Of a DNA stretch of 64,000 bases, positions 3,375 to 64,000 are shown in pieces. Below the pieces are notes generated by a model that did not search any database, was not told the origin of the DNA, and saw only the letters and a program-made list of their open reading frames with translations. The number at the start of each line of letters is the position of its first letter. Positions within the stretch are counted from its first letter, which is position 1. Made by a program: the position numbers and the translations under genes. Origin of the DNA: Pseudomonadota bacterium (GTDB taxonomy: Bacteria > Pseudomonadota > Gammaproteobacteria > Burkholderiales > Gallionellaceae); the NCBI GenBank assembly GCA_021821945.1, contig JAJZTF010000001.1, forward strand, positions 248,001-312,000, given 5' to 3'.

Positions 3375-6332
3375 GTGAAAAAACTGCGCGTCCTGATCTT
3401 AGAGGATTCCGAGGACGATACGCTCCTTGCCTTGCGCGAACTGAAGCGCGGGGGATTTGACGCGGCAGCCGAGAGAGTATCCAGCGAGAAAGGCCTAAAG
3501 GATGCGCTGTCCCGCCAGGAATGGGATCTCGTGATCTCGGATCACAACATGCCGGGGTTCAGCTCTTTTGATGCGATCCGCATCGTCCGCGAACACGGAC
3601 TCGACACCCCGCTCATCATCGTCTCAGGCAGCATAGGCGAGGAAATGGCTGTCGCCTCGATGAAATCCGGCGCGCACGACTTCGTGATGAAAAGCAACCT
3701 GGCTCGCCTCGTACCGGCGATCGAACGCGAGCTGAAGGAGGCGATGAACAGGCAGATCAAGCAGAAAACAGAAGCAGCGCTGGTTTCAAGCGAGCGCCAT
3801 TTCAGGGCTTATTTTGAACAGGCGCTGATCGGCATGGCATCGACCAGCGCCGAGAAGGGATGGCTGGAAGTCAACGGCGCGCTTTGCAAAATGCTGGGGT
3901 ACTCCCGCGAAGAACTGATGCGCATGAACTGGGCTGAGCTCACCCATCCCGACGATCTCGAAGCCAACCTCAAGCAATACAACCGGCTGCTTTGCGGCGA
4001 GCTCGATAACTACGTCATCGAAAACCGCTTCGTCCGCAAGGATGGAGAAACCATACATGTGCGCCGCGCGCCTCAGGCGGTGCGCAAACAGGACGGCAGC
4101 ATTGATTACATCGTCGCCATCGTCGAAGACATCACTGAACGCAAGCGAGCAGAAAACAACGAGCATCTGCGCAACCATGTTCTCGAACTCCTGACACAGG
4201 GCAAGCCGCTTTCAGAAATCCTGAATGCGATCGTGCTCGGCGTGGAAGAACAGAATCCTGCGATGCTCTGCACCATTTTGCTTCTGGATGCCGAAGGAAA
4301 GCGCCTTGCGATAGGTGCCGCCCCATCTCTTCCCCCATCCTACAATGCCGCGATAGAAGGCTCCGAGATCGGGCCCGAGGCAGGCTCATGCGGCACGGCC
4401 TGCTATACAGGAAAACGCGTCATCGTCGAGGACATAAGCAGCCATCCCTACTGGAAGAACTACAGGCATCTGGCTAAACAGGCAGGGCTGGCCTCCTGCT
4501 GGTCTGAACCGATATATGGTTCGACTGGCAAGGTATTGGGATCCTTTGCGATCTATCACAAAAAGCCCAGCAGCCCCTGCAGCTTCGACATATCGCTGAT
4601 CTCAAGCTGCGCAAGACTTGCCGGAGTGAGCATAGAGCGCAAGCAGGCTGAAGATGAGCTTCAGCTCGCTTCGATGGTCTACCAGCATTCAAGCGAGGCG
4701 ATGATGATCACCGACGAGCAGAACCGCATCATCGCGATCAATCCTGCATTTACTGAAATCACGGGTTACACCCTTGAAGAAGTGCTCGGGCGCAATCCCG
4801 GTTTCTTGAAATCCGGGAAACACGATGCAGACTTCTACAGAAATCTCTGGAACGAAGTCAAGACCAGAGGAAGCTGGCACGGTGAAATCTGGAACCGCCG
4901 CAGGAGCGGGGACATCTATCCCGAATGGCTGACCATCAACACCATACTCAATCCGGATGGCTCCGTGCATCGTCATGTCGCGCTCTTCTCGGACATCACT
5001 GACAAGGTGCGCACGGACGAGCTGATCTGGAGACAGGCCAATTTCGATCTGCTGACCGGCCTTCCCAACAGGCGCATGTTCCACGACAGGCTGGAGCAGG
5101 AAATCAAGAAGGCTCACCGCGGAAAATCGAAGGTCGCGCTGCTTTTCATCGATCTCGACCGCTTCAAGGAAATCAACGACACGCTTGGGCACCATCTGGG
5201 CGATCAGCTCCTGATCGAGGCGGCAAGCCGCATCGTCTCTTGCGTACGGGAATCGGACACAGTCGCGCGCCTGGGCGGCGACGAATTCACCGTCGTCCTG
5301 TCCGAACTACCTGACAGCGCCCATGCTGAAAAGATCGCTCAGGCCATACTCGAGAAGCTCGTCGCGCCATTCCAGCTCTATACCGACAATGCATATATAT
5401 CGGCAAGCATAGGCATCACCTTTTATCCCGACGATGCGCTCGACGTGGAACAGCTCCTGCGCAATGCCGATCAGGCGATGTATCTGGCAAAAAATGCAGG
5501 GCGCAACCGTCTTGGCTACTTCACAAGCGCGCTTCAGGAAAAGGCGCAGCTTAGGCTCAAGATGCTAAACGACTTGAGAGGCGCGCTTCCATCAAACCAG
5601 TTCAGGCTGCACTTCCAGCCCGTCGTCGAACTCGCAACGGGCAGGATCGTCAAAGCGGAGGCCCTGCTGCGCTGGGTGCATCCTGTGCGAGGGATGGTAA
5701 GTCCGATTGATTTCATTCCCCTGGCCGAGGAGAGCGGCCTCATCATAGAGATAGGCGACTGGGTATTCAAAGAGTCCGTGCACTGGATCAAACGCTGGCT
5801 TCCGATCGCGCCACAGGGTTTCAGGATCTGCGTTAACAAATCCCCCATGCAGATCCAGAACGACGAGGGGAACATAGAAGAATGGCTGTCTCATCTCGAG
5901 AGCCTCGGCCTTTCAGGAAGGCACATCGTCATCGAGATCACGGAGGGCCTGCTGCTGAATGCCGATGCCAGCATCACAAATAAGCTGCTCAAATTCAGGG
6001 ATGCGGGCATTGAGGTCGCCATCGACGATTTCGGCACGGGCTATTCCTCTCTTTCCTACCTCAAGAGGCTGGACATAGACTATCTCAAGATAGACAAATC
6101 CTTTGTGGAGGATATCGCAAACGATGCGAGCGACATGGCGCTCTCCGAAGCCATCGTGATGATGGCACACAAGCTCGGACTAACGGTGGTCGCGGAAGGG
6201 GTAGAGACCGAGGCGCAGAAAGAAAGGCTGATCGCAGCAGGATGCGATCATGGACAGGGATACCTTTTCTCCAAGCCCGTCCCTCCCGAAGAATTCGAGC
6301 TCTTGCTGAAGAAGGGTGAAGCTGGCCGATAA
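3375..6332 (+). CDS. REC-PAS-GAF-PAS-GGDEF-EAL c-di-GMP protein
   Basis: This 985-residue protein can both make and break cyclic di-GMP. Domains in order are a receiver (1-120, phosphoacceptor Asp56 in VISDHNMPG), PAS (about 140-257), GAF (about 270-420), PAS (about 428-545), GGDEF (about 550-720) and EAL (about 730-980). The GGDEF motif is intact at 634-638, and an RxxD inhibitory site (RESD, 625-628) stands five residues before it. The EAL motif is at 762-764, and the loop DDFGTGYSS and the AEGVE glutamate are present, so both activities look possible. The start is GTG, one base after the preceding stop. It is the likely output of the binding-protein/kinase pair upstream. Its last codons overlap the RNase P RNA gene on the other strand. 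Confidence 0.92.
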   Translation: MKKLRVLILEDSEDDTLLALRELKRGGFDAAAERVSSEKGLKDALSRQEWDLVISDHNMPGFSSFDAIRIVREHGLDTPLIIVSGSIGEEMAVASMKSGAHDFVMKSNLARLVPAIERELKEAMNRQIKQKTEAALVSSERHFRAYFEQALIGMASTSAEKGWLEVNGALCKMLGYSREELMRMNWAELTHPDDLEANLKQYNRLLCGELDNYVIENRFVRKDGETIHVRRAPQAVRKQDGSIDYIVAIVEDITERKRAENNEHLRNHVLELLTQGKPLSEILNAIVLGVEEQNPAMLCTILLLDAEGKRLAIGAAPSLPPSYNAAIEGSEIGPEAGSCGTACYTGKRVIVEDISSHPYWKNYRHLAKQAGLASCWSEPIYGSTGKVLGSFAIYHKKPSSPCSFDISLISSCARLAGVSIERKQAEDELQLASMVYQHSSEAMMITDEQNRIIAINPAFTEITGYTLEEVLGRNPGFLKSGKHDADFYRNLWNEVKTRGSWHGEIWNRRRSGDIYPEWLTINTILNPDGSVHRHVALFSDITDKVRTDELIWRQANFDLLTGLPNRRMFHDRLEQEIKKAHRGKSKVALLFIDLDRFKEINDTLGHHLGDQLLIEAASRIVSCVRESDTVARLGGDEFTVVLSELPDSAHAEKIAQAILEKLVAPFQLYTDNAYISASIGITFYPDDALDVEQLLRNADQAMYLAKNAGRNRLGYFTSALQEKAQLRLKMLNDLRGALPSNQFRLHFQPVVELATGRIVKAEALLRWVHPVRGMVSPIDFIPLAEESGLIIEIGDWVFKESVHWIKRWLPIAPQGFRICVNKSPMQIQNDEGNIEEWLSHLESLGLSGRHIVIEITEGLLLNADASITNKLLKFRDAGIEVAIDDFGTGYSSLSYLKRLDIDYLKIDKSFVEDIANDASDMALSEAIVMMAHKLGLTVVAEGVETEAQKERLIAAGCDHGQGYLFSKPVPPEEFELLLKKGEAGR

Positions 6333-6666
6333 GCCGGGTTCTGTCGTGGACAGTCATTCCTCTAGGCGTTTCGTTACCTGACGCTCAAGCGATCTACCCG
6401 CTGACGACGCGAGCCACGTCATGGTCAGCCTATTTGATCTTGCTCCGAATGGAGTTTACCCTGCCACGCCCGTTGCCGAGCGCGCGGTGCGCTCTTACCG
6501 CACCGGTTCGCCCTTGCCTGATCTGCTTTCACAGCCATCGGCGGTATGTTTTCTGTGGCACTGTTCATCACCTCGCGGTGTCCGGCCATTAACCGGCATT
6601 CTGCTCTGTGGAGCCCGGACTTTCCTCCCCGCATTTAAAATGCGCGGCGACTGCCTGACCAGCTTC
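6315..6666 (-). ncRNA. rnpB: RNase P RNA (bacterial type A)
   Basis: This is the catalytic RNA of ribonuclease P, which trims the 5' leader of pre-tRNAs. On the minus strand it begins GAAGCTGGTCAGGCAGTCGC and soon gives the universal GGAAAGTCCGGGCTCC. It contains CCGCCGATGGC, GGTAAGAGCGCACCG, GGTAAACTCCATTCGGAG, and the end CCGGCTTATCGGCCAGCTTC that pairs with the 5' end to close P1. The length of about 350 bases fits type A. The ends are set by similarity to the E. coli RNA. Short open frames inside it on either strand are not genes. Its 3' end overlaps the tail of the GGDEF-EAL gene encoded opposite by about 18 bases. Confidence 0.95.
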
Positions 6667-44770: not shown

Positions 44771-44778
44771 CTTAATCC

Positions 44779-44836
44779 CTCGAGAGGTGCTGCAACGGTC
44801 CCATGACCGTCAGGCTCGATTGTTTCAACGGCACCT
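44779..44836 (+). ncRNA. S-adenosylhomocysteine (SAH) riboswitch
   Basis: The conserved SAH-aptamer core is present: GAGAGGTGCTGCAACGG, CAGGCTCG and CAACGGCACCT in order. P1 is TCGAG (44780-44784) with CTCGA (44815-44819). P2 is ACGGTC (44795-44800) with GACCGT (44805-44810). The pseudoknot pairs AGGTGC (44785-44790) with GCACCT (44831-44836). The family switches genes on when SAH accumulates. GCTCGATT (44814-44821), which includes the 3' strand of P1, can also pair at seven of eight positions with AATGGAGC (44858-44865), which holds the ahcY ribosome-binding site. This suggests control of translation. Confidence 0.9.
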
Positions 44837-44869
44837 ATTCATTAAATCATCCCAATGAATGGAGCTTAT

Positions 44870-53878: not shown

Positions 53879-54418
53879 ATGAACAAGTTCGACGGAATCC
53901 TGCCCATCCCATCCATAGAAGAGAGTCTTGCAAGCTTCACCAAGCGCCTGGATGATGACATTTCGGAGCGCTTCAACGAATTGCGCAAATGTTCCTTCTT
54001 CGATCCCGTGCCCAGCGAATGGCTGAAGCCCATATCCGAGGAATGCGTGATCCGGCACTTCTACGCAGGAAACAAGCTGACCACCGAAGGCGATGCGTCC
54101 AACAACTTCTATGTCGTGCTGTTCGGATCGACCACCGTCTCATGCGACAACGAGGTCGTCGGGACGATAGTCAGCGGGGAATGCATAGGCGAAGGCACCT
54201 TCTTCTCCGGCAGCAATGTATCCCGTTCGGCAACCGTGACTGCCGATGAGCATGTGATCGTCGCCGAATTCAACAAGCTCGGCATAAGCCGACTGCAGCG
54301 CGATGCAAAGACCCAGTCCTATCTCGACAAGGCGCTCCTGCTCGCGCTATTCAGGAAACTGCAGGGCGCAAACCGCAAGATACAGGAGCTGATGCGCCTG
54401 ACCAGCCAGTTCATCTAG
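53879..54418 (+). CDS. Cyclic nucleotide-binding domain protein without output domain
   Basis: This 179-residue protein is built around one cNMP-binding (CRP-like) beta-roll at about residues 40-140. The phosphate-binding cassette is recognisable as GECIGEGTFFSGSNVSRSAT, with the arginine and serine in RSAT at the usual place, so a cyclic nucleotide could bind. There is no helix-turn-helix; the C-terminal 40 residues form one long helix (LALFRKLQGANRKIQELM). The N-terminal 38 residues are helical and unassigned. It may act by oligomerising or by binding a partner. A perfect dyad eight bases after the stop separates it from the fluoride operon. Confidence 0.8.
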   Translation: MNKFDGILPIPSIEESLASFTKRLDDDISERFNELRKCSFFDPVPSEWLKPISEECVIRHFYAGNKLTTEGDASNNFYVVLFGSTTVSCDNEVVGTIVSGECIGEGTFFSGSNVSRSATVTADEHVIVAEFNKLGISRLQRDAKTQSYLDKALLLALFRKLQGANRKIQELMRLTSQFI

Positions 54419-54425
54419 CGACTCC

Positions 54426-54447
54426 CGGTCCATGGGGCCATGGACCG
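54426..54447. terminator. Perfect dyad after the cNMP-domain gene (possible terminator)
   Basis: CGGTCCATGG (54426-54435) and CCATGGACCG (54438-54447) are exact inverse complements with two bases between, starting eight bases after the stop codon. It could form a stable hairpin ending the transcript, but there is no T-run, so a protein-binding palindrome is an alternative. Confidence 0.4.
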
Positions 54448-54499
54448 CAAGCAGGAAGCCCGGCATCCGGCCCCCAGCACCGGCCACGGGAAAATATAT

Positions 54500-54529
54500 T
54501 TGCACATGATGCGGGAAATGGAATATATT
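54500..54529 (+). promoter_or_regulatory. Promoter of the fluoride-resistance operon
   Basis: TTGCAC (54500-54505), 18 bases and TATATT (54524-54529) form a likely sigma-70 promoter, placing the transcript start a few bases before the riboswitch aptamer. Confidence 0.6.
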
Positions 54530-54540
54530 CCTCCCATCTT

Positions 54541-54593
54541 CAGGAGATGGCATTCCTCCTAGCAACCGCCTTCGTGGCTAATGATGCCTACAG
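54541..54593 (+). ncRNA. Fluoride riboswitch (crcB motif)
   Basis: The aptamer core matches the crcB RNA motif: GGAGATGGCATTCCTCC, then CAACCGCC, a short loop, and GGCTAATGATGCCTACA. P1 pairs GGAG (54543-54546) with CTCC (54556-54559). The pseudoknot pairs GGCAT (54549-54553) with ATGCC (54584-54588). The small stem is GCC (54568-54570) with GGC (54576-54578). The family binds fluoride through Mg ions and turns genes on. TTCCTCC (54553-54559) is a perfect complement of GGAGGAA (54667-54673), the crcB ribosome-binding site, so release of that site on fluoride binding is plausible. It lies just upstream of crcB, which settles the identity. Confidence 0.9.
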
Positions 54594-54642
54594 TTTTCCC
54601 GGACAGGGAAGGGTGTAGGCGCAGACACGAGCCTGCCCTTCC
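54586..54642 (+). promoter_or_regulatory. Competing hairpins in the riboswitch expression platform
   Basis: GCCTACA (54586-54592) pairs perfectly with TGTAGGC (54614-54620), enclosing TTCCC (54596-54600) with GGGAA (54606-54610). This hairpin would break the aptamer pseudoknot. The alternative is GGAAGGG (54607-54613) plus AGGC (54617-54620) with GCCT (54631-54634) plus CCCTTCC (54636-54642). No U-run follows either hairpin, so the switch probably acts on translation or on Rho access. Confidence 0.5.
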
Positions 54643-54677
54643 AACGTTCCGGTTTGATAATCGCACGGAGGAAAAGG

Positions 54678-55073
54678 ATGGAGTTCTATGGCTTTCTTGC
54701 AGTCGGTGCAGGTGCAGCGTTTGGCGCGTGGCTCCGCTGGTGGCTGGGCATCCTGCTCAACCCCGTCTTTCCAACCCTGCCGCTGGGCACGCTCGCAGCC
54801 AATCTGCTTGGCGGTTACTTCATCGGCGTAGCAGTCGCATTCTTCACCGAGCACGCAGGGCTTCCGCCTGAAGGACGGCTGTTCGTGATCACCGGTTTCA
54901 TGGGCGGCCTCACCACCTTTTCCACCTTTTCTGCAGAGTCCGTCACGCTATTCACACGCGGCCAATACATGTGGGCTGGACTGCATGTGGCCACGCATCT
55001 TGGCGGCTCCCTGATCATGACGATGCTGGGCCTGTTCACTTTCAACCTGCTTAAAGCGAAAGGAGTGGCATGA
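54678..55073 (+). CDS. crcB: Fluoride ion channel CrcB/Fluc
   Basis: CrcB (Fluc) is a small dual-topology membrane channel that exports fluoride as a dimer. The product is 131 residues with four membrane helices. Family marks are the first-helix GAAFGAWLRWWLG, LGTLAANLLGGYFIG near residue 36 with its pore asparagine, and GFMGGLTTFSTFSAES near 75, containing the Phe box and the central sodium-binding loop. ATG 54678 follows GGAGGAAAAGG; the open frame before it is leader. It is under the fluoride riboswitch and overlaps the HIT gene by ATGATG. Confidence 0.95.
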   Translation: MEFYGFLAVGAGAAFGAWLRWWLGILLNPVFPTLPLGTLAANLLGGYFIGVAVAFFTEHAGLPPEGRLFVITGFMGGLTTFSTFSAESVTLFTRGQYMWAGLHVATHLGGSLIMTMLGLFTFNLLKAKGVA

Positions 55074-55444
55074 TGGCAAATGCGGCCTGCCCGTTCTGCC
55101 AGCAAAGAAAGGTGCTGTTCGAGAATGAGCTGGCATATGTCATTCCGGATGCCTATCCTGTCAATCCGGGCCACCTGCTGATCATTCCCCGATCCCACAT
55201 CGCCGATTTCTTTCTGATCACGGAGCAGGAAAGGGCCGCACTGATGACGCTTCTCGACCAGGCGAAGCGCTACCTCGATGAAAAGCATGCCCCCGCGGGC
55301 TACAACATCGGCATCAATGTCGGCGAGGCCGCAGGCCAGACCATCCCGCATGTCCACATGCATCTCATCCCCCGATACCCGGGCGACACGGAGAATCCGC
55401 GCGGAGGGGTGCGCGGCGCAATTCCCGAAAAACAGAACTACTGA
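55070..55444 (+). CDS. HIT family nucleotide hydrolase/transferase
   Basis: This is a histidine-triad protein of 124 residues with the catalytic HVHMHLIP motif near residue 93. The N-terminal CPFCQQRKV holds a CxxC typical of zinc-containing HIT proteins, and VNPGHLLIIPRSH near 31 is the usual strand. HIT proteins split nucleotide phosphoramidates or dinucleoside polyphosphates. It is embedded between crcB and the DUF190 gene and coupled to crcB, so it is presumably induced by fluoride as well. A protective role against fluorophosphates is only a speculation. Confidence 0.9.
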   Translation: MMANAACPFCQQRKVLFENELAYVIPDAYPVNPGHLLIIPRSHIADFFLITEQERAALMTLLDQAKRYLDEKHAPAGYNIGINVGEAAGQTIPHVHMHLIPRYPGDTENPRGGVRGAIPEKQNY

Positions 55445-55457
55445 CAAGGAGACGATC

Positions 55458-55829
55458 ATGGAAGGCTGCTTTCTGAGGTTTTATCTGCACGAGAACCAGC
55501 GCAGCCACGGCAGGCTGACCTGGGAATGGCTGCTCGAACAGGCCAACAAGCTCGGCATCCGTGGCGGTACCGCGTTTCACGCGATGGGCGGTTTCGGGCA
55601 CCACCATCACCTGATGGAGGATCACTTTTTCGAGCTCGCAGGCAAGTCCGCAGTGGAGGTCGAGTTCGTCGTAACGCGGGATGAATCCGCATCCCTGCTG
55701 GCGCTGCTGCACAGGGAAAAAGTGCGCGTTTTCTATGCCCACATCCCGGCGCGTTTCGGGGTGGTCAATCCGGACGGGGACGACCCGCTGGAAAACGGCA
55801 AGACATGCGGCGGGACACCGACGCACTGA
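55458..55829 (+). CDS. DUF190 domain protein
   Basis: This is a small soluble DUF190 protein of 123 residues with a PII-like ferredoxin fold. LRFYLHENQRSHGRLTWEWL at the N-terminus and GGTAFHAMGGFGHHHH near residue 35 are typical; four histidines in a row could bind metal. DUF190 genes often follow crcB in fluoride operons, as here. The function is unknown; the PII-like fold suggests sensing or regulation of the channel. ATG 55458 follows AAGGAGA. The next gene, the first of the Hyf-like cluster, starts 34 bases later. Confidence 0.87.
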   Translation: MEGCFLRFYLHENQRSHGRLTWEWLLEQANKLGIRGGTAFHAMGGFGHHHHLMEDHFFELAGKSAVEVEFVVTRDESASLLALLHREKVRVFYAHIPARFGVVNPDGDDPLENGKTCGGTPTH

Positions 55830-55863
55830 CCTTGTCCCGCGATGACCATGAAGAGGCAAAAAA

Positions 55864-56808
55864 ATGCAGCTTGATGCAATCCTCCAGCAAATCGCACAGG
55901 TGCTGACCATCCTGCTGCTCTCGCCGCTGTTGCACGGTTTCATTAATACCGTCGAGGAGAAAATCCAGCGCGGCCAGGGTCCCAGCATCTGGCAGCCCTA
56001 TCGTGACCTCTTCAAGCTTTTCCAGAAGGAACTGGTCATTCCCGCCACCGCCTCCTGGGTGTTCCGCGCCGCGCCACTCGTGGCATTCACCGCCATGCTG
56101 ACCGTGCCCATCCTGATCCCGGTGCTGACCAATTATCCGCTGCCGCTGTCCGACATGGGCGACATCCTGGGCGGCGGGCTGATCCTCACGCTGGGCGGCT
56201 TTGCGATCCTGCTGGCGGGCCTGGACAGCGGCCATCCCTATGGCGGCCTCGGCTCGAGCCGCGAGGCCATGCTTGCGATCCTGGCCGAACCGACGCTGAT
56301 CATGGTGTTCGTCGGCATCACACTGCTGGCGCAGGCGATGCTGCCCTTCGTCGTCAACCACCTGCTGGTGGCACAGCCTGCCGTTTACTGGAGCCCGGCC
56401 CACCTGTTCCTGGTCGCGGCCTTCTTCATCCTGCTCACGGTCGAAACCGAAAGGCTGCCGATCCACTCGTCGATCCACTACGAGATCTACATGATAGGCG
56501 AGGCGCGCATCCTCGAATACTCGGGACCGCTGCTGGCGCTGCTGAAATGGGCATCCTGGATGAAGCAGGCCATCCTTTACACGATCTTCCTCAACGTGCT
56601 GGTCATCCCGTGGGGCTTGTCGATCGAGGGCACGGCGCTTGGCATTGCCGGTGCCATCGTCGCGCTGCTGGCGAAATGGCTCCTGCTCGGCCTAGTGATG
56701 GCCGTGGTCGATACCTCGCAGTCGCGCCTGCGCTTCTACCGCTATCAGGAACCGCTCGCGCTGTCCTTCCTGATGGCCATTCTTGCCGTGGTGGCAAGAC
56801 AAATCTGA
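55864..56808 (+). CDS. HyfC-like membrane subunit (NuoH family)
   Basis: This integral membrane subunit of 314 residues is in the NuoH/HyfC/HycD family, which joins the peripheral redox arm to the membrane arm in complex I and group 4 hydrogenases. About eight membrane helices are seen. Conserved loops are EEKIQRGQGPSIWQPYRDL near residue 31, AGLDSGHPYGGLGSSREAM near 118, and FFILLTVETERLPIHSSIHYE near 192, the acidic loop equivalent to the quinone-site loop of NuoH. It is the first of seven tightly packed genes. The ATG is preceded by AAGAGG. Confidence 0.9.
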   Translation: MQLDAILQQIAQVLTILLLSPLLHGFINTVEEKIQRGQGPSIWQPYRDLFKLFQKELVIPATASWVFRAAPLVAFTAMLTVPILIPVLTNYPLPLSDMGDILGGGLILTLGGFAILLAGLDSGHPYGGLGSSREAMLAILAEPTLIMVFVGITLLAQAMLPFVVNHLLVAQPAVYWSPAHLFLVAAFFILLTVETERLPIHSSIHYEIYMIGEARILEYSGPLLALLKWASWMKQAILYTIFLNVLVIPWGLSIEGTALGIAGAIVALLAKWLLLGLVMAVVDTSQSRLRFYRYQEPLALSFLMAILAVVARQI

Positions 56809-56821
56809 TGAGGAGGCGGGC

Positions 56822-57502
56822 ATGCTGATCTTTCACCTCGATCCCCTGGCCAGTGCGATTTTCAGCCTGCTGGCGATACTGGCGCTGATCCTGGCCTTCG
56901 TGATGCTGGGTTCGCACTGGGTGAAAAACCATATCTACGCGTTTGCCGCGGAATCCTGGGTCATCGCCGCGCTCTCGGCCGCGGTCGGCGTGTATGGCCA
57001 CTACCCGGAACTGCTGTTCATTGCCGTTCTCACCGCGCTGCTGCGCGGCTCGCTGCTGCCTTACATGCTGCTGCGCATCGTCAACGACCTCAAGCAGAGC
57101 CGCGAATTCACCCCGCTGCTGCAGCCTGCCAGCAGCCTCGTGCTGGGCGGTTTGCTGGTACTGTTTTCCTTTGCGCTGGCGCACCGGCTGGGTGTGCGCA
57201 TGCAGCTTGCCGACAGCATCGTGGTGCTGGCCCTGACCACCATGTTCGCGCTGAAACTGATCGGTTTTCTGATGCTGGTGCTGCGCGCCGAGGCCGTCAG
57301 CGCCATCCTCGGTTTGCTGGTGATCGAGAACGGCATCTTCCTGGGCTCGCAGATCCTGGTGCCGGGCATGCCGCTGCTTCTCGAACTCGTGATCCTGTTC
57401 GACCTCCTGATCATCGTTTCCACCTTCGGCCTCCTGATCCGCTACCTGCACCGGGAGCTCGGCACGACCAGCAGCCGCGAACTGACGAGGCTGGTCGGAT
57501 GA
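56822..57502 (+). CDS. HyfE-like membrane subunit
   Basis: This integral membrane protein of 226 residues is in the HyfE family, with about seven helices; its C-terminal part is NuoK-like. Helices include FSLLAILALILAFVML, LFIAVLTALLRGSLLPY, LVLGGLLVLFSFALAH and ILGLLVIENGIFLGSQIL, and the last matches the NuoK helix with its conserved glutamate in VIENG. In hydrogenase-4 HyfE is a core membrane-arm piece absent from hydrogenase-3, so this cluster is hydrogenase-4 type. ATG 56822 (MLIFHLD) follows GAGGAGGCGG. Confidence 0.88.
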   Translation: MLIFHLDPLASAIFSLLAILALILAFVMLGSHWVKNHIYAFAAESWVIAALSAAVGVYGHYPELLFIAVLTALLRGSLLPYMLLRIVNDLKQSREFTPLLQPASSLVLGGLLVLFSFALAHRLGVRMQLADSIVVLALTTMFALKLIGFLMLVLRAEAVSAILGLLVIENGIFLGSQILVPGMPLLLELVILFDLLIIVSTFGLLIRYLHRELGTTSSRELTRLVG

Positions 57503-57527
57503 ACAGGCGATACGGGGAAATGCAGTC

Positions 57528-58988
57528 ATGATGGCGCCATACCTCATCTATGCGATCTGGGGGGTCACCCTGCTGGCGGTTGTTGCCTGCTGGGCCTGGC
57601 AGGACGGGCGTGGCGCCGGCATGGTCAATCTCGCCGCGGCAGTCATCGATTTCGTGCTCACCTGCGTGCTGCTCTCCACCGTGCCGGCAAAGGGCGCGAC
57701 TGCGCTCAACGACTATCTGCTGCTGGACGGATTCGGCGTGTGGGTGATGTTCTGCCTTGCCATCGTCTATCTGCTCGCCTCGGTTTATGCCCTGGGCTAC
57801 ATGCGCCGCATGCACGGCGAGGAGGCCCGTCTCAACCGTTTCTACATGCTGTTCGCCGCATTCGCGCTGACCATGTTCCTCGCCCCTGTGCAGAACAATC
57901 CCGGCCTTTACTGGATCGCCATCGATCTGACCACCATCGTCAGCGCCTTCCTGGTGGGATTCCAGCGCGCCCCGGAGAGCATAGAGGCGGCCTGGAAATA
58001 CATCGTCATCGTCTCGGCGGGCCTGGGTCTGGCACTGCTCGGCACGGTGCTGTTCTACTGGGCAGGCACCTTCGTGTTCGGGCCGGTTTACGACATGACC
58101 TGGGCCAGTTTCGGCGCGATCGCGCCCAAGACCGAGAGCGTATTGCTGCTGCTCAGCTTCCTCTTGGTGCTGGCGGGATTCGGCACCAAGGTGGGCCTCG
58201 CACCCATGCATACCTGGCTGCCGGATGCGCACAGCGAAGGCCCGGCGCCCGTATCGGCGATGCTTTCCGGCGCGCTGCTCAATTGCGCAATGCTCGGCAT
58301 CGTGCGCTTCCTCGGCATCCTGCGCGGCACCGCGATTTCCGGATTCGCGCACACCGCACTCGTGCTGCTGGGCGCATTCAGCCTGCTGGTCGCGGCGCTT
58401 TTCATCACGCGCCAGACCGTCATCAAGCGTCTGGCGGCCTATTCCAGCGTGGAACACATGGGCGTGATCGCGCTGGGATTCGGCTTCGGCGGGCCGCTCG
58501 GAACCATAGGCGCGCTGTACCACATGCTCAACCATTCGCTGACCAAGTCCCTGGTGTTCTTCGGCGCCGGCAACATGATGCATGCCTTCGAAAGCAAGGA
58601 AATCGGCCGCATCCGCCGCGTGCTGGATTATTTTCCGCGCTCCGGCGCGGTCTGGCTGGCCGGCGCGGTGGCGATCACCGGCGCGCCGCCGTTCGGGCTG
58701 TTCCTGTCCGAACTGACCATCCTGCGCGGCGGCATGCAGGGCCATGACATCTGGGCGGTATGGTGGATGGCAGTGCTGCTGATCGTGATCTTCATCGGCT
58801 TCCTCGACAAATTCCGCGCGATGTACTTCGGCCCACGTCCGGAACATGCGCCGCAGATGAAGCTGCATTTTGTCGATGTGGCGCCCATGGTATTGGCGCT
58901 GGCCGCGATCCTGCTGCTGGGTTTGTGGTGGCTGCCCGCGATCTGGCAGCATCTTGCGGCAATCGCAGCACAACTGGGGGAAGGATGA
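57528..58988 (+). CDS. HyfF-like antiporter subunit (NuoL/M/N family)
   Basis: This 486-residue proton-translocating, Mrp-antiporter-like subunit of hydrogenase-4 HyfF type has about 14 membrane helices. Channel motifs are the lysine in GFGTKVGLAPMHTWLPDAHS near residue 224, the SVEHMGVIALG segment near 309, and HMLNHSLTKSLVFFGAGN near 335, with conserved His and Lys. These indicate an intact ion channel. It lies 25 bases after the HyfE-like gene and overlaps the HyfG-like gene by ATGA. Confidence 0.9.
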   Translation: MMAPYLIYAIWGVTLLAVVACWAWQDGRGAGMVNLAAAVIDFVLTCVLLSTVPAKGATALNDYLLLDGFGVWVMFCLAIVYLLASVYALGYMRRMHGEEARLNRFYMLFAAFALTMFLAPVQNNPGLYWIAIDLTTIVSAFLVGFQRAPESIEAAWKYIVIVSAGLGLALLGTVLFYWAGTFVFGPVYDMTWASFGAIAPKTESVLLLLSFLLVLAGFGTKVGLAPMHTWLPDAHSEGPAPVSAMLSGALLNCAMLGIVRFLGILRGTAISGFAHTALVLLGAFSLLVAALFITRQTVIKRLAAYSSVEHMGVIALGFGFGGPLGTIGALYHMLNHSLTKSLVFFGAGNMMHAFESKEIGRIRRVLDYFPRSGAVWLAGAVAITGAPPFGLFLSELTILRGGMQGHDIWAVWWMAVLLIVIFIGFLDKFRAMYFGPRPEHAPQMKLHFVDVAPMVLALAAILLLGLWWLPAIWQHLAAIAAQLGEG

Positions 58989-60508
58989 TGCGACATTGCG
59001 AAATTCGCAAGCTTGAACCTTCAGAACTGCCGCAGGCAGCGGATGCCCTGCTCTCCGCGCTCGGAGACACCCCCAGCGCGCATGGCCGCATGCAGTTCGC
59101 CTATGCATCCGCTTTGCCGGATGGAACGCTGCAGGTCAGTTACCTGCTGAGCCAGGGTGCCGGCAAGCCCTATGGCCTGTGGCGGGTCAAACCGGACGAC
59201 GGGAGGCTGCCCAGCCTCGCCAACAAGCTGCCGCTGCTTGGCTGGTACGAGCGCGAGATGATGGATCTCTACGGCCTGCAGTTTGAAGGTCATCCCGAAC
59301 CCTATCCGCTGGTGCTGCACGAAGGTTTCGCACCCGACGCACCACCCATGCTCGCGCCGTTCGACCGGCAGGGCAAGACACTGTCCGGCCATGCCATGCC
59401 GCCGACCGTGCCCAGCATCATAGGCGAGGACATCCAGCGCCTGCCTTTCGGCCCGGTCAGAGCCGATGTCGTCGAATCGGCGCAGTTTTTGTTCTTCTAC
59501 ATCGGCGAAGGCATCCTGCATTACCACCCGCGGCTCTTCTACAAGCACCGCGCGATGGAAGCCCGCTTCCAGAAAGCCGACCTGCGCACCGGCAGCGTGC
59601 TCGCAGAACGCGTGTCCGGCATCGATTCGGTTTCACACGCGCTGGCCTATGCCCAGGCGGTCGAAGCGGCGCTGGGCTGGCGCGCACCGAGGCGTGCGCG
59701 TTATCTGCGCGTCATCCTCTCCGAGCTGGAACGCCTTTACAACCATCTGCATTACTTGGGACATCTCTCCAAGACGACCACCCTCAAGGTCGCCGAGGCG
59801 GAGGGGCTTCTGCTCGAGGAAAAGCTGAAGCAGATCAACGCAATCCTGACCGGCAGCCGCTTCCTGCGCGGGCTGGTCGTGCCGGGCGGATTGCGCCGCG
59901 ACCTCGATGTTTCCAAGCTGGCTGCAGGACTGGATGCCCTGGAACGCGAAATTGACCTCTACATGGAAAGACTGGAAACCACAGCCAGCTATCTCGACCG
60001 CCTGCAGACCACCGGCGTGCTGCCGCGCCAGGTGGCATTCGACGAAGGAGCCACAGGCCCGGTGGAACGCGCCAGCGGGCTCGACCGCGACCTGCGCCGC
60101 GACCACCCCTATGCCGGCTATGGACGCCTCAATTTCACCGTATCTGTGCAGTCCGCCGGCGACGCGCATGCCCGCGCGCTGGTGCGCATGGACGAGATCC
60201 GCCAGTCGCGGCAGCTGATCCGCCTGGCGCTGGGCTGCCTCGAACCCGGCCCGGTGCTGCGCACCGAGGCGGTCGAGACGCCCGACCCGGACGGGGAAGG
60301 CCTGGGGTGGGCGGAGGGCGTGCGAGGCGGCCTGCTGTATGCGGTGCACCTCGATGACGCCAGAACCAGGCTTGCGCGGGTCAAGATCAAGGAACCGTCC
60401 TTTTCCAACTGGCGCGTATTCCCGTTCACCGTGCAGGACAGCAACATGATGGACTATGCGATCAACGAGGCAAGCTTCGGCCTGTCCGTGGCCGGCGTGG
60501 ATAGATAG
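58985..60508 (+). CDS. HyfG-like large subunit (NuoC-NuoD fusion) lacking NiFe ligands
   Basis: This peripheral-arm subunit of 507 residues fuses a NuoC-like domain (about 1-130, with WYEREMMDLYGLQFEGHPEP near 87) to a NuoD/HycE-like domain. In HycE and HyfG the NiFe site uses an N-terminal RVCGIC and a C-terminal CxxC. Here the first reads RVSGID (Ser211, Asp214), and the C-terminus ends SFGLSVAGVDR with no cysteine. The site cannot hold NiFe, so the protein is not a hydrogenase. The rest of the fold, such as HPRLFYKHRAMEARFQ, is intact. It therefore resembles NuoD or Ehr-type complexes, in which the lost metal site is reused or becomes a quinone or unknown substrate site. Confidence 0.88.
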   Translation: MMRHCEIRKLEPSELPQAADALLSALGDTPSAHGRMQFAYASALPDGTLQVSYLLSQGAGKPYGLWRVKPDDGRLPSLANKLPLLGWYEREMMDLYGLQFEGHPEPYPLVLHEGFAPDAPPMLAPFDRQGKTLSGHAMPPTVPSIIGEDIQRLPFGPVRADVVESAQFLFFYIGEGILHYHPRLFYKHRAMEARFQKADLRTGSVLAERVSGIDSVSHALAYAQAVEAALGWRAPRRARYLRVILSELERLYNHLHYLGHLSKTTTLKVAEAEGLLLEEKLKQINAILTGSRFLRGLVVPGGLRRDLDVSKLAAGLDALEREIDLYMERLETTASYLDRLQTTGVLPRQVAFDEGATGPVERASGLDRDLRRDHPYAGYGRLNFTVSVQSAGDAHARALVRMDEIRQSRQLIRLALGCLEPGPVLRTEAVETPDPDGEGLGWAEGVRGGLLYAVHLDDARTRLARVKIKEPSFSNWRVFPFTVQDSNMMDYAINEASFGLSVAGVDR

Positions 60509-60521
60509 GAGGAATGCAATC

Positions 60522-61316
60522 ATGCCCATCTGGAGCTGGTTCGGCATCAAAAGCGGCATCGCCACCCCGCCGGAAGGATCGGAAAATCATGGTCAGGAAG
60601 GCGTGCTCGGCCTGCCGCGTCTCGACGCCGCGAAATGCACTGCAGCGCAGGACCGCTGCAGCGACTGCGCTGCAGCCTGCCCGGCCGATGCCATCACCGT
60701 GCCTCCAGGGCAGCCGGCGGCGCTCGATTATGCGCGCTGCGTGGGTTGCCAGCTGTGCACCGAAGTCTGTCCTTCCGGCGCTTTCAGCCTCAGCCATGAC
60801 TGGGCTCTCGGCGTGCGCGACCGGGCCGATCTTCAAACCAACGGCGCGACGCGCGAACTCGAAACGGCGCTCACCGCGGAACTGGCCGCTTTCGGCCGCA
60901 GCCTGCATATCCGCCATGTCGATGCCGGTTCCTGCAATGGCTGCGAGAGCGAACTCCAGGCCCTGCTCAATCCCTTCTACAACCTGCACCGGCTGGGCAT
61001 ATTCTTCACGCCATCACCGCGCTTCGCCGATCTCTTGCTCGTGACCGGCCCGGTCACCGCGGCGATGCGTGAACCGCTGCTGCGCACCTGGGAGGCGATG
61101 CCGCAGCCTCGCTGGGTGATGGCGCTCGGCACCTGCGCCACCGGCGGCGGCACCAATGGCGGCGGCTATGCCTGCCACGACGGACTCGAAGGCCTGCTGC
61201 CGGTCGATGTCTGGCTTCCGGGCTGCCCGCCCAATCCTGCGGCCATCATCGAGGCCCTGCTGATGCTGCTGGGCCGCCGCCCGCAAATCGTGCATGGAGG
61301 CCGTCATGGGTCCTGA
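60522..61316 (+). CDS. Ferredoxin-HyfI fusion (NuoI-like plus NuoB-like small subunit)
   Basis: This 264-residue electron-transfer subunit has an N-terminal two-cluster ferredoxin (Cys39, 46, 49, 53 and Cys73, 76, 79, 83) fused to a NuoB/HyfI small subunit. The latter keeps the four ligands of the proximal 4Fe-4S cluster: Cys138 and Cys141 (SCNGCESE), Cys205 (GTCATGG) and Cys235 (PGCPPNP). In E. coli hydrogenase-4 these are separate proteins, HyfH and HyfI. All redox centres needed to pass electrons to or from the HyfG-like site are present. A strong AGGAGG precedes the ATG. It overlaps the HyfB-like gene by 11 bases. Confidence 0.88.
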   Translation: MPIWSWFGIKSGIATPPEGSENHGQEGVLGLPRLDAAKCTAAQDRCSDCAAACPADAITVPPGQPAALDYARCVGCQLCTEVCPSGAFSLSHDWALGVRDRADLQTNGATRELETALTAELAAFGRSLHIRHVDAGSCNGCESELQALLNPFYNLHRLGIFFTPSPRFADLLLVTGPVTAAMREPLLRTWEAMPQPRWVMALGTCATGGGTNGGGYACHDGLEGLLPVDVWLPGCPPNPAAIIEALLMLLGRRPQIVHGGRHGS

Positions 61317-63312
61317 AGCCATCTGTCTTTACGCATTCGGCATCGCGGCACTCTGCTGGCTCGCCGCGCTGGCGGCCGATGTCATTGCAGTGCCGCAGCT
61401 TGCGCGCGCATTGCTGGGTGCGGGCTGCACAGCTGCGGCTTTTGGCGCGGTGTGGGGTCTGCCGGCAGGCACTTCCGCCGCCACGATATTCACCATGGGC
61501 GACTGGCCAGTGGTGTTCCATCCCGATGCCGCCGCCTTGTGGCTGATGCTGCCCGCACTGCTGCCTGCCTTCTTTGCCGTGCTGCCGGACAGGCGGGTGC
61601 GCGGCTGGGCGACGGGCGCCGCGCTGTCGCTGCTCGGGGCGCTCGGCGTATACGCCCTGCAGGATGGCGCAAGTTTCCTGATTGCCTGGGAGCTGATGGG
61701 CTTCGGCGGCGCCATCATGCTGCTCGCAGAGCGCCGCAATACCCAGGCCGGGACGGACAACCTCTTCATGCTCGCATTGCTCGAAGTCGGCGGCGTGGCA
61801 TTGCTGCTTGCCGTGCTGATGCTGGGGCCAGGCCTGCAGTTCTCCGGCTATGCCGCGCAATGGGGAAGCCATGGGACGGCGGCTGCTTTCTTCCTCGGCG
61901 TGCTTTGGATCATCGGGTTTGGCGCGAAACTGGGACTCCTGCCGTTCTATGAATGGTATCCCGGCGCCTACAGCAGCGGCAGCGGCGCATCCGGCGCCAT
62001 CCTGTCGGGTGTGGTGATGAATGCGGCCTACTTCGCGCTGGGCCGTGCCCTGCTGCAATGGCTGGGCACACCATCGTGGCTTGCGCAGTTTGGCATCGTC
62101 GTGGTGGCGCTGGGCACGTTCACGGCGATACTCGCCATCCTGTATGCCTTCCAGCAGGACGACTGGCGCAAACTTCTGGCGTTTTCCTCAGCCGAGAATG
62201 CGGCAGTCGCGGTCACCGCGCTGGGTGCAGCGCTGGTGTTCCGCGCCGGTGGCCAGGAAGGGCTGGCCGCACTGGCCTGGATTTCTGGCATGCTGCACCT
62301 GATGGGCCACAGCCTGGCCAAGGGCACCCTGTTCTTCGCCGCCGATGCCGCGGCCAATCTGCAGGGCAATCATCAGCTGCGCCAGGGTGCGCTGTTGCGC
62401 CACGCCCCGGCGACGCTCGGGCTCGGTGCCGTACTCGGCGCGATGAGCCTGGCCGCATTGCCTCCCACTGCAGGTTTCGTCAGCGAGTGGTATGTATTCC
62501 AGAGCCTGTTCCACGATTTCAAGCTTGCCGGGGACGCATCACGCATCGCGCTGGCGCTCTCCGGGGCAGGCCTGGCGCTCACCGCAGCGATCGCGCTGGC
62601 AACCATGGTCAAGCTGTTCGGGGTCGGACTGCTGGGCCAGAACGAACCGCAGGGGGCGCATCACCGCAAGCATCTGGAGCAGCTCACCGCACTGTCGCGC
62701 AGCGCAGTGCTGATCACTGGGCTTGCGGTGCCGTTGCTGGCGGTGAGCATGATAGGCTGGCTGCCGCAGATGCAGGCAGCGTCATGGATCGCCCCGTCAG
62801 CCCCTGCCACCATGGTACATGACTGGCTGCTGGTGCCGCTTTCTGCAGGATTCGCCTTCATCTCGCCAGCCAGACTCGTCATTGCGCTGCCGCTTCTGGC
62901 GCTGGTGCCTGTGCTGCTGGTCAGGATCACGAGGCGATTTGCGGTTCGCCGAGCGCCGATCTGGTGCGGCGGGGAAGACTATGCCGCCCATGCCGGCGCG
63001 ACCACCGCCCTGGCTTTTTCCAACGCGCTGCGCGTGTTCTACAGCTTCATTTACCGGCCGACCAATACCGTTGCCCGGCAATTCGAGGGCAAGCCCTATT
63101 TCCTTCGGGAGTTGCATTTCGATTATTCGCAGGCGCCGGTCTTTGGTTCTCTGGTGTTCCAGCCTGCCGTGAAAACCATACAGTGGCTTAGCGCACGGCT
63201 TCGCTTCCTGCAAAACGGGCTGATGAATGCCTATCTGGCATACATCGGCATCCTGCTTGTCCTGATACTGGCAGCAGCCCTGTTCTGGTCTCCTCCGGGC
63301 TTGTCGCGATGA
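61306..63312 (+). CDS. HyfB-like antiporter subunit (NuoL family)
   Basis: This large proton-pumping membrane subunit of 668 residues is of HyfB/HycC type with about 16 helices. The channel motif GFGAKLGLLPFYEWYPGAYSS near residue 205 keeps the lysine, LAFSSAENAAVAVTALG near 289 matches the conserved glutamate region, and HLMGHSLAKGTLFFAADA near 327 keeps His and Lys. ALPPTAGFVSEWYVFQSL near 386 is the usual broken helix. ATG 61306 lies five bases after GGAGG; an earlier in-frame ATG at 61294 is less likely. It overlaps the next gene by ATGA. Confidence 0.89.
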   Translation: MGPEAICLYAFGIAALCWLAALAADVIAVPQLARALLGAGCTAAAFGAVWGLPAGTSAATIFTMGDWPVVFHPDAAALWLMLPALLPAFFAVLPDRRVRGWATGAALSLLGALGVYALQDGASFLIAWELMGFGGAIMLLAERRNTQAGTDNLFMLALLEVGGVALLLAVLMLGPGLQFSGYAAQWGSHGTAAAFFLGVLWIIGFGAKLGLLPFYEWYPGAYSSGSGASGAILSGVVMNAAYFALGRALLQWLGTPSWLAQFGIVVVALGTFTAILAILYAFQQDDWRKLLAFSSAENAAVAVTALGAALVFRAGGQEGLAALAWISGMLHLMGHSLAKGTLFFAADAAANLQGNHQLRQGALLRHAPATLGLGAVLGAMSLAALPPTAGFVSEWYVFQSLFHDFKLAGDASRIALALSGAGLALTAAIALATMVKLFGVGLLGQNEPQGAHHRKHLEQLTALSRSAVLITGLAVPLLAVSMIGWLPQMQAASWIAPSAPATMVHDWLLVPLSAGFAFISPARLVIALPLLALVPVLLVRITRRFAVRRAPIWCGGEDYAAHAGATTALAFSNALRVFYSFIYRPTNTVARQFEGKPYFLRELHFDYSQAPVFGSLVFQPAVKTIQWLSARLRFLQNGLMNAYLAYIGILLVLILAAALFWSPPGLSR

Positions 63313-64000
63313 ACGCCGGTGATGCGCGCCCCAAGGGCGATCCATTGTCAGCCGCTTCCTGCCAGCGGGTCCGCAGCTACCTGCTCGAACGCCAGTCTCC
63401 CATGGGAGGCTTCTGCTTCTACCGCACGGCATATCTGGACGAACCCAATCTGTCGGACACCTGGCATGCGGTTGCAGCATTGAGGCTGCTGGGCGAGGAG
63501 CCGCCAAACAGGGATGCCATCGCGGACTTCGTGTGCATGCAACCTCCCGGCAAACAGCCCTACGCCCTTTACTACCGGACCTTCACCCTGGATGCGCTCG
63601 GCATGGCTGACCCTGACCGCGCAGCCATGATTGAAAACATCCATGCATTGCAGCTGGATACGGAAGGTCTTTTCACTCATGCCGATCTTTCCGGAAAGCT
63701 GGAAAGGCTGCTGTTCATCCTGCGCCTCAAGGTTCATTGCGGCACGGGATTTTCTGCGCAACAAGTCGTCAGCGCCATGCTTGCACTGGAACATCCGGAG
63801 GGCGGCTTTGGCACTCCACCCAACATCATTGAAACCAACCTCGCAGCAGCCATCCTTGCGCTTTGCGGGGGAAAAGCCAGCGCGGATACAGGAAGATTCG
63901 TGACCAGCCTTGGCGGCCCCGGGTACGCATTCCGGTTCACGGAAAATTCCCTTGCGTTCAACCTGGAGACCATCTGTGCCGGAATCGAATGCTGCCGTTT
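63309..64000 (+). CDS. Terpene-cyclase/prenyltransferase-fold repeat protein (3' end outside window)
   Basis: An open frame starts at ATG 63309, overlapping the HyfB-like stop by ATGA, and continues through the right edge for 230 codons. The translation shows alpha/alpha-barrel repeats like those of squalene cyclases and protein prenyltransferase beta subunits: SPMGGFCFYRTAYLDEPNLS near residue 32, EHPEGGFGTPPNIIETNLAA near 165, and SLGGPGYAFRFTENSLAFNL near 200. These follow the pattern of a GGF turn and a helix repeated every 45-50 residues. There is no signal peptide or membrane segment in the visible part. Catalytic DxDD or zinc-ligand motifs are not seen so far. Tight coupling to the Hyf-like cluster suggests a shared task. 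Function unknown. Confidence 0.72.
   Translation, partial: MNAGDARPKGDPLSAASCQRVRSYLLERQSPMGGFCFYRTAYLDEPNLSDTWHAVAALRLLGEEPPNRDAIADFVCMQPPGKQPYALYYRTFTLDALGMADPDRAAMIENIHALQLDTEGLFTHADLSGKLERLLFILRLKVHCGTGFSAQQVVSAMLALEHPEGGFGTPPNIIETNLAAAILALCGGKASADTGRFVTSLGGPGYAFRFTENSLAFNLETICAGIECCR

Follow-up and report, generated by a model that had tools for sequence, protein, structure and literature searches.

What can a complex built like hydrogenase 4 do for its cell once the residues that hold the nickel–iron (NiFe) centre are gone? The question is raised by six genes, hyfCEFGIB, found on the forward strand at positions 55864–63312 of a 64,000-nucleotide stretch of DNA, hereafter the window, from a bacterium of the Gallionellaceae (assembly GCA_021821945.1, contig JAJZTF010000001.1, positions 248,001 to 312,000). 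A sequence-only reading of this DNA had described a hydrogenase-4-like pump of the energy-converting hydrogenase-related (Ehr) type. The computational analysis reported here supports the Ehr assignment and places the complex in a deeply branching clade linked to the fluoride response. It would most likely be a pump that helps the cell to survive under fluoride rather than a hydrogen enzyme, because its metal site is lost, a fluoride riboswitch precedes it, as it does relatives in several phyla, and the gene of the CrcB fluoride channel lies beside it.

The Gene Cluster and Its Fluoride Riboswitch

The same-strand gene run starts about 1.3 kb before hyfC, earlier than the feature delimited by the sequence-only reading. 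It opens with a fluoride riboswitch aptamer (crcB RNA motif, RF01734) at 54534–54597 (+), which scores 48.9 bits with cmscan (gathering threshold 34, E 3e-10) and is the sole fluoride riboswitch found in the genome, itself given as 99.99% complete. The gene of the CrcB channel follows at 54678–55073 (+; PF02537, 94.8 bits), with an ATG at 54678. Both a same-strand upstream aptamer and an exporter gene behind it, the marks of membership in the fluoride riboswitch regulon, are thus present. Next come the genes of a HIT-domain protein (55070–55444, +; PF01230) and of a DUF190 protein (55458–55829, +; PF02641, start codon taken from the open reading frame, ORF), and then the hyf-like cluster. From CrcB to hyfB, adjacent genes overlap or leave gaps of at most 34 bases. 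This opening of the gene run, an aptamer for fluoride followed by a channel gene for it, places the complex in the fluoride response. Control of the hyf-like cluster by fluoride is very probable.

A promoter-like match at 54501–54529 is the only one within 54350–64000; shuffled sequence averages 1.8 such matches, and alone it is therefore no evidence. In the predicted fold, the 3' end of the aptamer pairs with downstream bases (z −3.0; an equally good fold in 2 of 200 shuffles), and this pairing could be a switching hairpin. A protein with a cyclic-nucleotide-binding domain (PF00027) is encoded just upstream of the riboswitch, at 53879–54418 (+).

The six contiguous forward-strand ORFs already described are borne out by the ORF calls and by Pfam and NCBIfam matches. 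They encode, in this order, a HyfC/NuoH-like membrane subunit (55864–56808; PF00146, 112 bits), a HyfE-like membrane subunit (56822–57502), a HyfF-like antiporter-type subunit (57528–58988; PF00361, 174 bits), a HyfG-like large subunit corresponding to a NuoC–NuoD fusion (58985–60508; PF00346 and PF00329), a fusion of a ferredoxin with a NuoB-like HyfI (60522–61316; PF01058 and Fer4 families) and a HyfB-like antiporter-type subunit (61306–63312; PF00361, 83 bits). The HyfE-like protein has no Pfam match, and its match to the hydrogenase 4 membrane subunit family NF008556 (53.9 bits) stays below the curated cut-off of 136. None of the six proteins reaches a curated cut-off in the NCBIfam scan, the nearest being the NuoB subfamily (115.1 versus 116), and the hyf names thus designate relatives, not equivalogs.

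The Riboswitch Link among Relatives

Relatives were fetched from a genome collection with a seven-row alignment (A1) and two peptides, DSNMMDY and DV[VL]ESAQF, the best 80 of 100 loci being kept. The choice of this sample is independent of the riboswitch, because the search peptides derive from the protein only. Riboswitches in the 80 loci were scored with a covariance model built from 21 riboswitches (E≤0.05), Rfam's own model being applied at the site of a single locus, L048. A riboswitch match is found in 69 of the 80 loci. hyfC is found in 71. In 67 of these the locus extends 600 bp or more ahead of hyfC, and a same-strand riboswitch lies upstream of the gene in every one of these 67 testable loci, within 600 bp in 64 of them and at 1670 bp in the farthest case. 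The 11 loci without a match all fall outside the 67, hyfC being not found in 8 and its start falling ahead of the first base of the locus in 3. The weakest match overall reaches 21.2 bits (E 0.041) and the weakest counted upstream of hyfC 23.7 bits (E 0.0096, in L048); the latter site, apparently the same as G588:C18, scores 48.6 bits with Rfam's own model. The gene order C-E-F-G-I-B is seen in 70 of the 80 loci. Two loci of Pollutimonas bauzanensis (L099 and L100), on two contigs, have identical riboswitch positions and scores. Carriers of the complex include Paraburkholderia phenazinium (L079) and Caballeronia sordidicola (L087), both environmental species that can be cultured.

The neighbouring genes tell a similar story. 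The 59 loci of at least 15 kb contain CrcB (38 loci), DUF190 (27), enolase (26), MutS-like (24), CLC (13) and pyrophosphatase (6) genes; at least one of CrcB, CLC, enolase and pyrophosphatase occurs in 51 of them, and none of the four in 8. The list of genes associated with this riboswitch reportedly originates with Baker et al. 2012.

A different situation is observed for another Ehr group of the same genus. Among 61 genomes of the genus searched, 59 have a match at E≤0.001; below E 1e-40, the window's genome aside, identity is 32–37%, and the 20 of these matches that were inspected all carry the RxSGD motif of this other group. As a control, 20 loci (13–19 kb) around a different Ehr of the genus were scanned. 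They contain no RF01734 at the Rfam gathering threshold (0/20), and the custom covariance model gives one weak match (18 bits, E 0.06). None of 29 query neighbour proteins is found there, though the hyf genes are detected in the same control database. The control is narrow, since all its loci come from one genus. The chrB-b RNA motif occurs in 3 of the 20 control loci (L119 10907–10958, L123 3207–3259 and L124 11191–11242), possibly a sign that this other Ehr group is regulated in a context of its own.

The converse search started from the riboswitch. RF01734 was looked for in 274 genomes of the class. A match at E≤0.001 occurs in 19 of them, and a match above the cut-off in 15, including the window's genome. 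Of the 20 regions fetched, 16 have sites over the cut-off and the other 4 weaker sites. Six regions, all among the 16 and representing 5 of the 14 other over-cut-off genomes, contain 7 HyfG-like ORFs. Each of the 7 is preceded on its own strand by a riboswitch, at a distance of about 2.5–3.6 kb from the open frame, and hydrogenase ligand motifs are found in none of them (0/7). Four belong to F1, the subfamily of the window (55–63% identity), and three to a second group, F2 (35–39%). At least two converse-search regions (L147 and L155) apparently share contigs with loci of the relatives scan (L089 and L048).

Close relatives are rare in the order: a match at E≤1e-80 is found in 4 of 300 genomes including the window's own, the other three at 60–75% identity. 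The nearest plasmid relatives are Caballeronia and Burkholderia records (52–54% identity). Three such plasmid loci give 20 riboswitch matches, the Caballeronia record being without annotation there, and two annotated Burkholderia records show enolase, inorganic diphosphatase, CrcB, a chloride-channel family protein, MutS and dynamin nearby. More distantly related plasmid loci, from Mycobacterium branderi (38%) and Alicyclobacillus (33%), have the riboswitch too. At the plasmid relatives in Allomeiothermus, Rhodococcus, Rhizobium and Variovorax none is seen at the gathering threshold in the 17 kb examined. Riboswitch-linked members occur in four phyla: Pseudomonadota, Acidobacteriota, Actinomycetota and Bacillota.

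Loss of the NiFe Site

The large subunit (P0001, 507 amino acids) shows both changes that the sequence-only reading had pointed out. Alignment places RVSGID opposite the RVCGIC motif of E. coli HycE and HyfG, and the C-terminal CxxC is absent, the protein ending with GLSVAGVDR where the E. coli proteins have DPCYSC. These losses extend to the whole F1 alignment, made of the window and 83 close relatives. In these 84 rows the columns of the four NiFe ligands are all without cysteine, as compared with four cysteines in E. coli HycE and HyfG. The four columns hold Ser 76, Ala 5, Val 2 and Thr 1; Gly 43, Asp 40 and Ala 1; Thr 63 and Ser 21; and Gly 84, respectively. In the set used for the tree, which adds F2 and plasmid members to F1 (42 F rows altogether), 41 rows are likewise without a ligand-column cysteine, the Mycobacterium row having one in the third column.

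A further residue distinguishes the clade. All 29 rows of NuoD, hydrogenases and other Ehr retain the histidine of the conserved GPxH motif, whereas all 42 F rows have replaced it, by Arg (39), Trp (2) or Tyr (1). Arg is found in 83/83 F1 rows with a letter there (Arg159 in the window), and Trp or Tyr in the F2 ORFs at L155 15459–17153 (−), L158 6321–7931 and L159 7244–9466 (−). In complex I, this NuoD histidine and a tyrosine bind the quinone head group. The RIEY/RVSG alignment puts a Gly at the position of the NuoD tyrosine in the window, so that neither residue of the quinone site is kept.

An AlphaFold2 model of the large subunit, computed from 41 aligned rows including the window, has a mean pLDDT (per-residue confidence) of 87 and a pTM (predicted fold score) of 0.90. 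Its first PDB match is HycE of the E. coli formate hydrogenlyase (7z0s_E, TM-score 0.89 by query length), the C–D subunits of complex I coming next. Residues 157–163, around Arg159, and 498–507, at the C-terminal motif, have a pLDDT below 50, and the predicted model thus leaves the former NiFe pocket undefined.

The absence of hyp maturation genes had been noted within the window. It extends to the genome for HypD (PF01924), the sole Hyp protein searched for at that scale: HypD is not found, the same search being positive in 4 of 14 control genomes, including that of E. coli. As for formate dehydrogenase, the gene cluster has none, as had been said, but an alpha subunit homologue encoded on another contig of the genome scores above the family cut-off; formate is therefore possible as a distant electron source. 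Because ligand cysteines are missing from all 84 rows and HypD is not found, the complex is not taken for a NiFe hydrogenase, and it is almost certainly devoid of such activity.

Phylogenetic Placement

The tree of the large subunit comprises 71 rows: 37 F1, 3 F2, 2 riboswitch-linked plasmid rows, 21 other Ehr (15, plus 6 of the 20 genus controls), 6 Hyc/Hyf and 2 NuoD. The F1 rows were taken from the 84 by dropping those of 400 amino acids or fewer and thinning to below 72% identity. Left out, of 44 ORFs, were 14 other Ehr, one near-copy of HycE and four F1; the sampling did not extend to Mbh, Mbx, Ech or Coo. All 42 F rows group in a single clade (support 100/98), the other Ehr another (98/92) and the Hyc/Hyf rows a third (100/99). 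Within this sampling the window falls in the 63-row Ehr side (100/99) and outside the 6-row Hyc/Hyf clade. The tree proposed as a check of the sequence-only reading thus sets the window apart from the Hyc/Hyf hydrogenases, and the Ehr assignment is supported by the alignment, by this tree and by the HypD search. The two plasmid rows sit on long branches (2.6 and 2.85) with forks below 95, which makes their exact place unsure. Some F1 tree rows come from contigs ending before hyfC, so the riboswitch is seen for fewer than all 42 F rows.

Iron–Sulfur and Antiporter-Type Subunits

The small subunit was said to keep all its iron–sulfur (Fe–S) ligands, and it does: 12 cysteines are present in the ferredoxin–HyfI fusion, each invariant in 81/81 aligned small-subunit rows, and we infer that they hold three [4Fe-4S] clusters.

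PF00361 in HyfF and HyfB marks Mrp-antiporter-like membrane subunits. Their channel lysines, described as kept, are so in part: the lysine of transmembrane helix 7 (TM7) is there in both, and the position of the NuoM/NuoN TM8 lysine is Asn in both. We take the channel positions to be those of E. coli NuoL/M/N; the letters at these positions were checked in the alignment. HyfF of the window also keeps the TM12 Glu, with Asp at the position of the TM5 Glu, most of its ion-channel residues being thus retained. In its relatives (window excluded, as for HyfB below), the TM7 Lys and TM12 Glu are kept in 77/77 and the TM5 position is Glu in 60 and Asp in 17. HyfB relatives keep the TM7 Lys in 76/76, the TM12 Glu in 75/76 and the TM5 Glu in 73/76. 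At the TM8 position, sampling gives Asn in 28/28 F HyfB as compared with Lys in 9/12 control HyfB, and Asn in 11/12 control HyfF.

HyfB is moreover remodelled in its TM7b–TM8 motif. Each of two conserved histidines is replaced by Tyr in 76/77 F1 rows and a conserved Pro by Ser in 73/77, a stretch rich in Tyr and Gly/Ser, YEW[FY]PGAYGSGSGA, standing in place of the His/Pro motif. The best-matching HyfB-like subunits of F2 have Asn for the first His and retain the second, which the Mycobacterium row replaces by Tyr. One F2 locus, L159, has three antiporter-like ORFs, one above the window's set.

A Possible Role under Fluoride and Its Alternatives

Entry of hydrogen fluoride (HF) acidifies the cell and lowers its proton-motive force, on which fluoride export depends, as stated in the relevant passages of a 2024 review (PMC11139923), where Na+/H+ antiporters rank second in frequency among the classes linked to the riboswitch. 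A redox-driven proton pump would fit this setting, because fluoride stress needs proton-motive force and because of the anatomy of the subunits. In the mechanism proposed, HF entry would acidify the cytoplasm and drain the proton-motive force, and fluoride bound by the riboswitch would switch the genes on. A soluble low-potential carrier, probably a ferredoxin, would feed electrons into the clusters of the HyfH–I fusion; the acceptor at the old active site would probably be a quinone, bound otherwise than in complex I. Electron flow would then drive protons out by way of HyfF and possibly of HyfB as well. The potential so regained would power CrcB, or CLC-type exporters in other species, so that fluoride is expelled. 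We incline, by a little more than an even chance, to such a fluoride-induced, redox-driven proton pump restoring the proton-motive force and so supporting fluoride export. The putative redox-linked ion pump already put forward would agree with the intact Fe–S cysteines.

Several points weigh against this proposal. The genome also encodes a NuoD of the ordinary complex I type, and a second proton pump therefore needs a reason. No electron-donor gene stands among the ten annotated neighbour families (of 60 clusters). Quinone binding of the complex I kind is doubtful, since Arg takes the place of the GPxH His and Gly that of the NuoD Tyr. The TM8 position is Asn in all the HyfF and HyfB relatives counted above, and proton transfer through HyfB is uncertain because of this Asn and of the two conserved histidines lost. 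The proposal is, finally, inferred from sequence.

Other explanations have to be considered with the same subunits in mind. Group 4 enzymes are reversible, and with its fused ferredoxin-like domain the complex might run backwards, the proton-motive force driving electrons uphill to reduced ferredoxin for repair under fluoride; this would presumably be costly, since fluoride already drains that force, and no ferredoxin-using enzyme is seen among the ten annotated neighbour families, which makes it quite unlikely. The 12 invariant cysteines are hard to explain without electron flow, and a non-redox, Mrp-like cation/proton antiporter serving pH homeostasis, in which HyfG and HyfI would be a scaffold only, is thus unlikely, although two points speak for it: the relationship of HyfB and HyfF to Mrp subunits, and the rank of Na+/H+ antiporters in the review cited above (PMC11139923). 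A redox-driven primary fluoride pump, with the pocket Arg and the Tyr and Gly/Ser stretch of HyfB carrying or gating F−/HF, would be the first of its kind. However, HyfB of the riboswitch-linked F2 and Mycobacterium rows does not have the Gly/Ser stretch, being changed only in part and in other ways; this counts against the idea, a fluoride path through HyfB finds little support there, and we consider such a pump very unlikely.

Two further readings deny either the fluoride link or the loss of hydrogenase function. That an ordinary Ehr complex came to lie near fluoride genes by chance could be argued from the other Ehr group of the genus, which has no fluoride genes nearby. It is highly improbable in view of the linked members in four phyla, and was rejected on the riboswitch counts, 67/67 versus 0/20 in the controls. 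A genuine formate hydrogenlyase or hydrogenase 4, sustaining H2-linked metabolism under fluoride, would agree with the best PDB match in both sequence and fold, HycE, with the formate dehydrogenase alpha homologue elsewhere in the genome, and with the review where it describes the riboswitch-linked formate hydrogenlyase as formate oxidation (PMC11139923). A genuine NiFe hydrogenase is nevertheless ruled out by the loss of ligands (none in 84 rows, four in E. coli HycE and HyfG), by the HypD search and by the position outside the Hyc/Hyf clade, and a formate hydrogenlyase is an extremely improbable candidate.

The Rest of the Gene Run and of the Window

Past hyfB, the forward-strand run continues with a prenyltransferase-toroid-like protein that overlaps hyfB by 4 bases and extends past the window (63309–64000, +; full ORF at L004 11309–12199); its PF00432 match, 23.9 bits, is below the cut-off of 26.5. 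It is followed by a dynamin-like GTPase, a HEAT protein and a 176-residue protein without Pfam match, which we take to be a soluble P-type ATPase/HAD-like protein. Further on come a cyclopropane-synthase-like protein, a VIT1-like protein just below its cut-off (27.6 versus 28.1 bits) and a MutS-like ORF, whose scanned part has no Pfam match and which shares a BLAST cluster with a MutS_V protein. A second MutS-like ORF, a PAP2-like ORF and, beyond enolase, a histidine-phosphatase-like ORF were named by eye. The enolase of this run (Pfam match; contig positions 321264–322115, about 10 kb past hyfB) is a second one, the other enolase of the genome lying elsewhere on the same contig. The run from riboswitch to enolase is a putative single transcript.

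Elsewhere in the window, an S-adenosylhomocysteine (SAH) riboswitch match lies at 44776–44843 (+; 39.9 bits, gathering threshold 37) and a bacterial RNase P RNA of class A at 6314–6666 (−; 315 bits).

Comparison with Known Systems

Ehr complexes without NiFe ligands are already in print, with a function unknown or suspected and without a known substrate in the sections dealing with them (PMC6349859, PMC10284858). The crcB motif upstream of "formate hydrogen lyase" genes has likewise been in print since 2010 (PMC2864571), and the 2024 review, in the section concerned, repeats the link and interprets it as formate oxidation (PMC11139923). This last interpretation fails for the window complex. 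Ehr and fluoride are joined in no title or abstract opening among the matches listed, most subscription papers lying outside the scope of that search. What appears to be new is that the riboswitch-linked complex sampled here is, by its sequences, an Ehr clade and not a formate hydrogenlyase; this statement covers the sets examined rather than the whole of the printed formate hydrogenlyase genes. Once Ehr and fluoride biology are joined, one Ehr clade acquires a physiological context, with fluoride as its likely inducer, so that the donor, the acceptor and the pumped ion become assayable. The connection would also correct the printed formate reading and suggest that energy conservation contributes to fluoride resistance.

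Taken with its relatives, the locus resembles the fluoride riboswitch regulon as outlined in the available parts of PMC2864571 and PMC11139923, in that RF01734 stands with CrcB, CLC, enolase, pyrophosphatase and MutS-like genes. It differs from the "formate hydrogen lyase" of that regulon by having no hydrogenase site, a loss not stated in those parts. With the E. coli formate hydrogenlyase and hydrogenase 4 (Hyc, Hyf), the complex shares subunits of the hyfB, C, E, F, G and H–I types, and the closest solved structure, 7z0s, belongs to this group. Unlike them, it is without the RxCGxC and DPCxxC ligands, has no hyfA or hyfD counterpart among its six genes, comes from a genome where HypD is not found and would be under riboswitch control. 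Common to it and complex I are subunits of the NuoB, C, D, H, I and L/M kinds, the Fe–S cysteines being kept, whereas the six window genes include none of the NADH module and the NuoD His and Tyr are not kept. The nearest likeness is with the Ehr complexes, which have a group 4/complex I architecture, antiporter-like subunits and no NiFe ligands according to the definitions given in PMC6349859 and PMC10284858. Compared with the 21 other Ehr rows sampled, the clade of the window stands separate (100/98), carries the fluoride riboswitch and has lost the GPxH histidine.

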